A DNA stretch of 64,000 bases from Blattabacterium cuenoti. GTDB taxonomy: Bacteria > Bacteroidota > Bacteroidia > Flavobacteriales > Blattabacteriaceae. The stretch lies in contig NZ_CP059221.1 in assembly GCF_014252375.1 (NCBI RefSeq), positions 62,001-126,000 of the forward strand, read 5' to 3'. Made by a program: the position numbers and the translations under genes. Positions 46,759 through 59,299 of the stretch are shown here, one piece after another (within the stretch, counting starts at the first letter, position 1; every line of letters begins with the position of its first letter). The notes below the pieces were generated by a model. The model saw only the letters and a list, made by a program, of their open reading frames with translations. It had not been told where the DNA came from and did no database searches.

Positions 46759-47457
46759 ATGTCAGGACATAATAAATGGGCTAATATACAACATAGGAAA
46801 CAAAATCAAGATATAAAAAAATCAAAAAAATTTTCTAAAATTCTTAGAGAAATTAATTCAATAGTAAAAAAATTTGGTACTAATAGTTCTTATTTTAAAA
46901 AAATTATTTGTAATGCAAAATTATTAAATATACCTAAAAATACTATAGAAAGAATAATTAAAAAATCATTAAGTAAAAAAAACTGTAAACATCTATATTT
47001 AGAAGGTAAAATATATGAAATTTACATATACATGGAATGTATGACAAATAATAACAGTAGAACTATTTCTAGTATAAGGATCTTTTTTAATAAAAATGGT
47101 GGAAAATTATGTAATAATGGTAGTATATCTCATTTTTTTAAAAAAAAAATTATTTTTTCTATAAAAAAAGAATTTTTTTCTTCAATAAAAGATTTTGAAT
47201 TAATGTTGATAGACTTTGGAGCTAAAGATATTTTTAATAAAAAAGAAAGAATTGATTTTATTACAAATTTTGAACATTTTGGAAAAATGAAAGATAGTCT
47301 TGAAAAATTCAAGTTAAAATATGATTTTAAATCAGTAAGAATACCTAAACATCTAATAGATATTAAAAAAGAAAAAAAGAAAAAAGTTATGGATTTAATT
47401 GAAATACTTAAAAATTATGATGATATAGAAAATGTTTATTCTAACTTAATGATATAA
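46759..47457 (+). CDS. YebC/PmpR family protein (DUF28)
   Basis: This 232-residue protein starts MSGHNKWANIQHRKQNQDIKK, the family hallmark, and has the PKNTIERIIKKSL and YEIYIYMECMTNNNSRT segments. The domain order of three alpha/beta parts is kept, but the sequence is strongly lysine/isoleucine shifted. Members act as transcription regulators or in relief of ribosome stalling. The rnpB RNA begins within about 10 nt of its stop, so both may share a transcript. Confidence 0.88.
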   Translation: MSGHNKWANIQHRKQNQDIKKSKKFSKILREINSIVKKFGTNSSYFKKIICNAKLLNIPKNTIERIIKKSLSKKNCKHLYLEGKIYEIYIYMECMTNNNSRTISSIRIFFNKNGGKLCNNGSISHFFKKKIIFSIKKEFFSSIKDFELMLIDFGAKDIFNKKERIDFITNFEHFGKMKDSLEKFKLKYDFKSVRIPKHLIDIKKEKKKKVMDLIEILKNYDDIENVYSNLMI

Positions 47458-47465
47458 TATTTAGT

Positions 47466-47771
47466 ATAAAACAAGGCGTCCTATCGCATTTTTAATGAGG
47501 AAAGTCCGGACACTATAGAGCAACACAATGGGGTAATTCCCATCCATTTAAAAAAAATGAGGAACAGTGCAACAGAAAGAAAATACAGGTAAAGCTGTAG
47601 TGAAATCATGTAAACTCTGTGTAGTGAAATGTCATGTAAACCAGAAACTTGCTCGGTTAATTCTGGAGGGTAGACAGATAGAAATTATAGGGTAACCTAA
47701 ATTCAAGATAAATGATAGGAAAATCAAACTATAATTGATTTACAGAATCCGGCTTATAGCTTTTGTTTTAT
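47466..47771 (+). ncRNA. rnpB: RNase P RNA
   Basis: The universally conserved core GAGGAAAGTCCGGAC is at 47497-47511, ACAGTGCAACAGAAAG near 47564-47579, and the closing AGAATCCGGCTTA near 47744-47757. The ends pair as helix P1: ATAAAACAAG at 47466 with its complement ending CTTTTGTTTTAT at 47771. At about 306 nt it is short, with AT-rich variable helices. The P1 3' end at 47771 directly abuts the first base of tRNA-Ser at 47772. The ends are set by pairing, not by experiment. Confidence 0.93.
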
Positions 47772-47856
47772 GGAGAGATGGCCGAGAGGCTTAAGGCGCA
47801 CGTCTGGAAAGCGTGTATACAATAAAGTATCAAGGGTTCGAATCCCTTTCTCTCCG
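47772..47856 (+). tRNA. tRNA-Ser (GGA)
   Basis: A class II tRNA with acceptor arms GGAGAGA/TCTCTCC and discriminator G, a D arm GCCGAGAGGCTTAAGGC, anticodon stem CACGT/GCGTG around loop CTGGAAA (anticodon GGA at 47806-47808), a variable arm, and T arm AAGGGTTCGAATCCCTT. No CCA is encoded. It follows rnpB with no spacer and ends 8 nt from the convergent rmuC stop. Confidence 0.96.
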
Positions 47857-47864
47857 CTAAATTT

Positions 47865-49019
47865 TTAATTATCTAATTTTTTTAGTTTTTTTTCAATTGA
47901 GTTAGATCTAACTCCTAATAATTTATCAATATCTTGTGAAGCTCCTTGTAATTTATCTTTTGCTTGATTAAGTAAGTACCCAAACTTAGAAAATTCTTGT
48001 TTTATAGATTCTAATACATTCCAAACTTCAGAAGTACGTTTTTGTATGGCTAATGTTCTAAATCCTATTTGAAAACTATTTAAAATTACAGCTAAAGTAG
48101 ATGGACCAGCAATTACTGTTTTATATTTTCTTAATAATTCTTCTAATAATTTAGAGTTTTTTACAACCTCTATATATATTCCTTCAAAAGGTAAAAATAG
48201 TATTGCAAAATCAGTAGTATTTGGAGGTTCTATATATTTATTTTTAATATCTTTAGACATTTTTTTTATAACTAATTCCATGTTTTTCTTAGCTATATCA
48301 ATATTTTTTTTTAATCCATAATGATAGGCTTTCTGAAGTTTTTCATAACTTTCTTTTGGAAATTTAACATCAATTGGTAACCATACAGTATTATTTTCAC
48401 TACCAGGAAATTTTACCGCAAATTCAACAACATAATTTGTTCTTGGTTTAGTAATTACATTAGATGCATATTGTTCTGGAGATAATATTTGTTCAAGTAA
48501 CATTGATAATTGCATTTCACTAAAACTTCCAGATATTTTTACATTATTTAATGTATTTTTTAATGAACTTATGTCACTTGCTAAAACTTTCATTTCTCCC
48601 AAACCATTTTGTAAAAAAGTAAGTTGATTACCAATTAATTTAAACGATCTTTCTAAATGAATATCAATGGAATCTTTAAGTTTATTAGTAATAATATCTT
48701 TTATGAATTCCATATTTTTATTCATAATATTAATAAACTTATTTTGTTCAGAACAAATAAAATCTATTTTTGTGGATTGAAACTTAATATATGATTGTAT
48801 ATCTTTGTTTATAATATTTTGGTAATCTTTTGATGTACTAATCCATTCATTTTTTAATGAAATTAAAAAATCTAATTTTTTTTCTTTATCATAAGAATAA
48901 ATATTATTGATTTCATTTTTTTGATTTAAAAATTCATTTTTCAATAAAAATTCTAATTTTATGAAAAAAAAAACTAGAAAAAATATAAAAACAAAAAATG
49001 ATAAAACTAAATATAACAT
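47865..49019 (-). CDS. rmuC: RmuC family protein (DNA recombination-associated)
   Basis: This 384-residue protein has an N-terminal membrane helix (residues 3-23), a long coiled coil (about 40-170), and the RmuC nuclease-like domain with LEQILSPEQYASN, VEFAVKFPG, WLPIDVKFPKESYEKL and FLPFEGIYIEV. E. coli RmuC limits inversions at short inverted repeats; its biochemical activity is unclear. The domain motifs look intact. Confidence 0.9.
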   Translation of the reverse strand: MLYLVLSFFVFIFFLVFFFIKLEFLLKNEFLNQKNEINNIYSYDKEKKLDFLISLKNEWISTSKDYQNIINKDIQSYIKFQSTKIDFICSEQNKFINIMNKNMEFIKDIITNKLKDSIDIHLERSFKLIGNQLTFLQNGLGEMKVLASDISSLKNTLNNVKISGSFSEMQLSMLLEQILSPEQYASNVITKPRTNYVVEFAVKFPGSENNTVWLPIDVKFPKESYEKLQKAYHYGLKKNIDIAKKNMELVIKKMSKDIKNKYIEPPNTTDFAILFLPFEGIYIEVVKNSKLLEELLRKYKTVIAGPSTLAVILNSFQIGFRTLAIQKRTSEVWNVLESIKQEFSKFGYLLNQAKDKLQGASQDIDKLLGVRSNSIEKKLKKLDN

Positions 49020-58371: not shown

Positions 58372-58944
58372 ATGAAATGGATTAATTCACTAATCAGTTG
58401 TTTTATGATATTATTTAGTATAATAGATATATTAGGAAACGCTCCAATAATTATGGGGTTTAAATCTAAAGGAAATGTTATAGATACTAAAAAAGTTATA
58501 ATTACTTCTTTTATCATTTTCTTATCTTTTTTATTTTTAGGTCAGCCTATATTAAAAGTTATAGGAATAGATATACATTCATTTTCAGTTGCTGGATCTA
58601 TTGTACTATTTTTAATAGGAATAGAAATGATACTAGGTGTAGATTTTCATAAGATTTCAAAAAATACACAAACTTCAATAGTTCCTATAGCGTTTCCATT
58701 GATTGCTGGCCCTGGATCATTAACTACATTAGTATCATTAAGATCTACTTATAATAATACAATTATAATTTTATCTTTATTACTTAATATGATAGTTGTT
58801 TACTTTGTTATTGACAAATGTGATTTTATAGCTAAAAAAATAGGAAATAATGGATTAGATATATTAAAAAAAATATTTGGAATTATTTTATTAGCTTTTT
58901 CTGTAAAAATTTTTGGGGCAAATGCAATAAGATTATTTAAATAA
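58372..58944 (+). CDS. MarC family membrane protein
   Basis: This 190-residue protein has about six membrane helices and the conserved segments IDILGNAPIIMGF and IVPIAFPLIAGPGSLTT, the MarC/UPF0056 signature. Function is uncertain; it is not a proven multidrug exporter. Its last 12 nt overlap the end of the convergent rnpA gene. Confidence 0.88.
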   Translation: MKWINSLISCFMILFSIIDILGNAPIIMGFKSKGNVIDTKKVIITSFIIFLSFLFLGQPILKVIGIDIHSFSVAGSIVLFLIGIEMILGVDFHKISKNTQTSIVPIAFPLIAGPGSLTTLVSLRSTYNNTIIILSLLLNMIVVYFVIDKCDFIAKKIGNNGLDILKKIFGIILLAFSVKIFGANAIRLFK

Positions 58945-59299
58945 TAAATTAATTGAATTAAATATTTTTTTTATAGAACTATTTATACTATAATAATTAT
59001 GGATTACTGATGATTTATATAAAAAAATTATGTAAATTTTTTTATTAAAATATTTTTTTAATATTAGTTTATTTTCAATAAAAGAAGATCTAATTAATCT
59101 TTTTATTCTATTTCTATTAACAGATTTTTTAACTTTTTTTTTTTATTAAAGTTCCTATTAAATTAGGATATTCATTTGTATTAAAATCTTCAATAAGATA
59201 AAATATTGAAAGAATAGGATACTCAAATATACGTTTACCGTTTTTTATAATTAAATTAAAAAATTTTCTTTTTATTTTATTTTTATATATTTTATTCAT
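58933..59299 (-). CDS. rnpA: RNase P protein component, frame broken at an A11 tract
   Basis: The ATG is at 59297-59299 (MNKIYKNKIKRKFFNLIIKN), followed by GKRIFEYPILSIFYL. The frame then runs into an A11 tract (seen as T11 at 59134-59144 on the + strand) and stops. With ten adenines the frame reads IGTLIKKK then VKKSVNRNRIKRLIRSSF, the RnpA RNR signature, and continues to a TAA at 58933. The joined protein would be 121 residues, the family size. RnpA assists rnpB in tRNA 5' maturation and is normally needed, so I treat it as a gene rescued by slippage or a homopolymer miscall. Confidence 0.85.

Follow-up and report, generated by a model that had tools for sequence, protein, structure and literature searches.

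Organization of the yebC, rnpB and tRNA-Ser genes

RNase P is the enzyme that trims the 5' ends of tRNAs, and rnpB is the gene of its catalytic RNA. In the 64,000-nt stretch of Blattabacterium cuenoti DNA analyzed here (the window), a yebC/TACO1 family gene, rnpB and a gene for tRNA-Ser(GGA) follow one another on the same strand, with a convergent rmuC gene as the right-hand limit of the unit (Table 1). By its sequence the rnpB product is a bacterial class A RNase P RNA (RF00010): the Rfam covariance match runs from 47468 to 47772 on the plus strand, scores 146.6 bits against a cutoff of 100 and spans model positions 1-367, the full length. It is the single RF00010 match found in the genome, and its bit score is the lowest among the 49 genomes of the genus. 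The tRNA gene was called by ARAGORN, with a cloverleaf and a GGA anticodon, and by RF00005 at 56.9 bits. The first-pass annotation had rnpB abutting tRNA-Ser, and Rfam, ARAGORN and the minimum-energy fold together confirm this to the base, with zero spacer at the junction 47771/47772 in the focal genome. The yebC-type gene that it had placed about 8 nt upstream is also there, identified as YebC by Pfam, with its stop codon ending at 47457, 8 nt before helix P1.

Table 1. Features of the rnpB locus and the rnpA gene, in window coordinates.
Feature	Position	Strand	Basis and remarks
yebC/TACO1 family gene	46759..47457	+	232 aa; ORF; Pfam PF01709 E 2.2e-33, PF20772 E 7.7e-15
rnpB, class A RNase P RNA	47466..47771	+	RF00010 146.6 bits; ends placed by P1
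P1 helix, 5' strand	47466..47475	+	partner 47762-47771 in minimum-energy fold
P1 helix, 3' strand (bases directly 5' of tRNA-Ser)	47762..47771	+	N(-2)N(-1) = AU
tRNA-Ser(GGA), long variable arm, CCA not encoded	47772..47856	+	ARAGORN 47772-47857; Rfam 47772-47856
rmuC, convergent, right-hand limit of unit	47865..49019	-	ORF; Pfam PF02646 E 6.3e-57
rnpA, RNase P protein subunit	58933..59299	-	PF00825 match 58957-59142; limits read by hand

Helix P1 borders the tRNA

P1 has nine Watson-Crick pairs between 47466-47474 and 47763-47771, and G-U pairs inside. When 47466-47857 is folded to minimum energy, 47466 is paired to 47771 and 47772 to 47855, so that P1 and the acceptor stem stand end to end, with the cloverleaf beside P1 in the joint RNA. 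This bears out the earlier placement of the closing base of P1 at 47771, immediately before tRNA position +1. The two P1 strands of the focal genome pair with -9.6 kcal/mol, and 4 of 200 shuffled versions of the 3' strand did as well; across the genus, 10 or fewer of 200 shuffles were as low as the native helix in 42 of the 49 genomes. Median pairing energy was about -13.8 to -14.0 for native strands, compared with -8.1 for strands combined across species (300 draws) and -6.7 for shuffled strands. Covariation could be read for 38 of the 49 genomes in one register, where each of the nine P1 pairs forms in 37 or 38 of the 38 and substitutions occur on both strands, counts that are flattered since the register was chosen as the best scoring; the other 11 genomes lie outside it and include the focal one, whose P1 has one C-C mismatch at the inner end. 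The pairing of P1 is more than chance.

Conservation and spacing in the genus

The order yebC, rnpB, tRNA-Ser(GGA) is found in all 49 genus genomes. The upstream frame resembles the YebC of the window at 44.9% identity or more in every one of them (the window's own included), and the same-strand tRNA-Ser(GGA) starts 15-43 nt past the CCGGCT block of rnpB (median 22). Measured from the end of P1, the gap to the tRNA is 0-27 nt with a median of 5 nt, and the yebC stop lies anywhere between 17 nt within P1 and 36 nt upstream of it; P1 lengths came from ungapped extension with one mismatch allowed, where chance A-U pairs are possible, and both distances share this uncertainty. The gap is 0 in 7 genomes and 0 or 1 in 15. 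Comparison of the rnpB-tRNA spacing across Blattabacterium thus upheld the linkage in 49 of 49 genomes, but the exact zero spacer in only 7 of them. The whole yebC-rnpB-tRNA unit is compressed. In 35 of the 49 genomes the yebC stop codon falls inside the extended 5' strand of P1, and one DNA stretch may serve there both as the coding end of yebC and as a ribozyme helix. Since gene order in Blattabacterium is conserved over long stretches, the linkage cannot be taken, even at 49 of 49 genomes, as independent evidence for selection.

Terminators and promoters around the junction

A strong hairpin followed by a T run was found in 0/49 genus genomes within the 330 nt before the tRNA and in 0/49 after it, compared with 8/23 outgroups of the same order after rnpB; strong means a score of at least 20 on our own scale, with the cutoff fixed after the scores were known and the counts given without a null model. 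With a loose criterion, candidates appear within 150 nt of rnpB in 17 of the 23 outgroups; of the 49 genus genomes, 12 have one downstream of the tRNA and 11 have one in the 330 nt upstream of it. The screen is imperfect: a hairpin that is clear by eye in L040 was missed, and outgroup L037 entered the terminator and tRNA counts with just 81 nt of downstream sequence. The absence of a terminator between rnpB and the tRNA, on which the first-pass annotation depended, is supported, as the gap leaves little or no room for one and no strong candidate precedes the tRNA; same strand, short gap and no strong terminator between the two genes go together in 49 of 49 genomes.

The Bacteroidetes-type promoter (-7) box has the form TAnnTTTG. 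It occurs in the 60 nt before the tRNA in 3/49 genomes, the focal genome not among them, against 5.7% expected in shuffles, which is no enrichment, and before rnpB in 0/49 against 2.7% expected. As the comparison relied on a single consensus and on shuffles of single bases, a degenerate internal promoter could escape it. Judged by the gene packing, a promoter shared by yebC, rnpB and tRNA-Ser is plausible.

Relatives, outgroups and recurrence in other bacteria

A same-strand tRNA within 1.3 kb after rnpB was found in 0/23 genomes from other families of the order (one with only the 81 nt noted above). When 246 genomes of the order were scanned with a pattern, 37 matched, all of them among the 39 genus members in that sample, and 0/207 of the others did. 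Of the 49 genus loci the pattern recognizes 46; the three that escape it, L007, L010 and L058, have long gaps. G247, one of the 207 genomes without a match, does have a tRNA at its rnpB end. As true cases escape the pattern, the scans undercount.

Within the family, 67 of 68 genomes gave an rnpB match and the junction was read in 18 genomes outside the genus, 15 of which have neither a downstream nor an upstream tRNA at rnpB. In both genomes of sister genus g21 (L187 and L190, read by hand) a tRNA-Met/Ile(CAT) starts 0 or 1 nt past P1; this is probably a separate origin of the layout, since the tRNA is Met/Ile(CAT) and not Ser(GGA). In genus g86 (L202) a tRNA-Leu(GAG) ends 12 nt upstream of rnpB, and its 3' processing could help to form the rnpB 5' end. 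In genus g20 (L186 and L189) there is little space for a terminator either, with only 12 or 20 nt between the rnpB match and the start of a long reading frame.

Scanning a collection of 84,980 species returned 40 matches: 6 Blattabacterium, 23 others with an ARAGORN tRNA and 11 without one. The rnpB sequence exceeds the Rfam cutoff at 19 of the 23 non-Blattabacterium loci (L087, L088, L096 and L112 fall below it). These 19 comprise eight Cardiobacteriaceae, three WOR-3, two Clostridiales and one locus each from Chloroflexia, Gemmatimonadetes, Gastranaerophilales, Clostridia, Negativicutes and an unplaced member of Bacillota. All eight matched Cardiobacteriaceae loci have tRNA-Arg(CCT) at the rnpB end. 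In 5 of the 19 (L075, L085, L086, L102 and L110) the tRNA directly abuts the end of the model match or overlaps it by one base, although L086 and L110 share an identical junction and may be one lineage. The Gemmatimonadetes locus (L103) has rnpB 23 nt after one tRNA and 8 nt before another, all on the same strand, with both tRNAs at 71.4 bits. A crude, uniform model that assumes 45 tRNAs in each genome, and uses a mean genome size of 3.02 Mb and a 31-nt window for the start of a same-strand tRNA, predicts about 20 genomes by chance; 29 were found, many of them related by shared ancestry. We considered an argument for selection from the spread of the junction across bacteria and rejected it on these numbers. 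With a count this near to chance, the recurrence tells us that bacteria tolerate the layout, but gives no sign that they favour it.

The RNase P protein gene

In the focal genome the rnpA reading frame is split at a run of 11 A (59134-59144), and the 56-aa N-terminal frame taken alone gave no Pfam match. PF00825 is matched in 49 of 49 genus genomes. Both halves of rnpA were found in 46 of them (G002, G010 and G039 unscored): the halves lie in different frames across a run of 9-11 A in 36/46 and in frame in 9/46, and in G042 the frame is common to both but interrupted by a stop codon. The poly(A) run sits just before the RNR motif and has length 10 in 27 of the 37 disrupted genes. Rescue by transcriptional slippage has been proposed for genes of Blochmannia (PMC3017870). 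We regard it as a lead that rnpA is probably rescued in the same way rather than dying, because both shifted phases occur and both motifs persist. Homopolymer assembly error is a possible source of the frameshifts.

A model for rnpB 3' end formation

The abutment, its genus-wide linkage, the scant room for a terminator and the tight packing of yebC against or over P1 all agree with a single transcript, and the tRNAs at the rnpB end in g21 and Cardiobacteriaceae also speak for such a reading. We propose that a single RNA carries rnpB and tRNA-Ser; it probably includes yebC too, or else starts at a promoter within the yebC gene. RNase P would cut this RNA before G1 of tRNA-Ser, a cut that is needed anyway for making that tRNA, and the same cut would free rnpB with its 3' end at P1 or a few nt beyond. 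A read-through RNA must be cut at 47771/47772 to give the tRNA, and we infer that RNase P would therefore make the 3' end of its own RNA. By hand count the predicted cut would leave rnpB ending 17 nt after CCGGCT, compared with 18 nt for the annotated 3' end of Escherichia coli rnpB (NC_000913), although no tRNA is annotated in the 1-kb stretch around the E. coli gene, unlike here. In Sulcia, another Bacteroidetes endosymbiont, tRNA 5' processing is described as consistent with an active RNase P (PMC6581868).

The cutting would be done mainly in trans, by a pre-existing RNase P molecule. An A-U at N(-2)N(-1) of the leader, as found in the focal genome and in only 4 of the 49 genus genomes, is called optimal for RNase P in PMC9433436, which also describes structured leaders as anti-determinants that slow the enzyme. 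A leader buried in P1 should thus slow RNase P, which counts against easy self-cutting; cleavage in trans would be simpler, since here the structured leader coincides with one strand of P1. A flush junction is also not required, as spacers reaching 27 nt in some species show. In species with longer spacers, 3'-5' exonucleases may trim the remaining tail, and frames of two such families are present in the genome: an RNB-family frame of 656 aa and a 717-aa frame with two RNase PH domains, which would be PNPase. The first-pass statement that no 3' trimming is needed is not supported as a rule, given the gap of up to 27 nt and the two 3'-5' exonuclease families kept, and is true at most for the flush species. 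As for its origin, the layout most likely came about through genome compaction and loss of a terminator, and not as a selected device. The whole reading, one RNA on which the RNase P cut at tRNA-Ser makes the rnpB 3' end, mainly in trans and as a by-product of compaction, seems to us the probable one.

Two other readings were weighed against it. The genes might be transcribed separately, with a tRNA promoter inside rnpB, the rnpB 3' end formed by other nucleases or by Rho-dependent termination, and the abutment mere packing. A Rho gene lies close by, genes of the RNB and RNase PH/PNPase families are present, and the lack of a strong terminator after the tRNA as well means that termination here must use other means; hand reading also found, where the focal P1 3' strand begins, a sequence that would match the -7 box but for one extra base. 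The exact box, however, is no more frequent before the tRNA than expected (3/49), and even with an extra tRNA promoter any rnpB read-through would still be cut by RNase P. We consider separate transcription unlikely.

Alternatively, a newly made rnpB might cleave its own attached tRNA as its first turnover, with the layout kept by selection. Artificial self-cleaving conjugates of pre-tRNA and RNase P RNA have been built (Frank, Harris and Pace 1994, as cited in a passage of PMC11143913), and these resemble the present case in that a substrate tRNA is joined to the ribozyme; as far as that passage goes, they are engineered and joined near the substrate-binding region, whereas here the arrangement is natural and the tRNA sits on the native 3' end. 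Flush junctions also recur with different tRNAs in unrelated lineages. Against this, P1 would presumably need to unwind before its 3' strand could enter the ribozyme's own active site, the gap drifts between 0 and 27 nt, and the frequency across bacteria is near the crude chance estimate. A dedicated self-cleavage in cis, maintained by selection, appears improbable. A more elaborate version, in which new rnpB is a natural tethered ribozyme whose active site is blocked by tRNA-Ser until the cis cut, so that every RNase P RNA would need one self-cleavage before acting as a free enzyme and, together with an RnpA perhaps made only by slippage, the junction would act as a check and a feedback on the RNase P level, strikes us as very improbable.

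Known systems and significance

In the polycistronic RNAs of mitochondria and in bacterial tRNA operons, tRNAs serve as punctuation. The proposed maturation is alike in that RNase P excision of a tRNA would set the end of its neighbour. It differs in that the neighbour is RNase P's own RNA, whose P1 strand supplies the bases 5' of the tRNA. That RNase P should handle its own precursor has a precedent in yeast mitochondria, since tRNA-fMet, RPM1 and tRNA-Pro stand under one promoter in a promoter table (PMC3797045): with RNase P RNA and tRNAs sharing a promoter there, RNase P can process the precursor of its own RNA, as is proposed here. That unit differs in being mitochondrial, in having tRNAs on both sides and in an RPM1 that is cut into fragments, and the part of the paper containing the table mentions no zero-gap junction of P1 and tRNA. 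A search of titles and abstract openings, with most subscription journals outside its reach, found no description of the rnpB-tRNA junction layout in bacteria.

The Blattabacterium locus offers a simple natural case in which the substrate of a ribozyme is joined to the ribozyme's own end, a layout that is genus-wide and has arisen independently in other bacteria. Questions that can be tested with it are whether RNase P matures its own RNA, how the enzyme copes with a leader held in a helix, and what takes the place of lost terminators in compact genomes.
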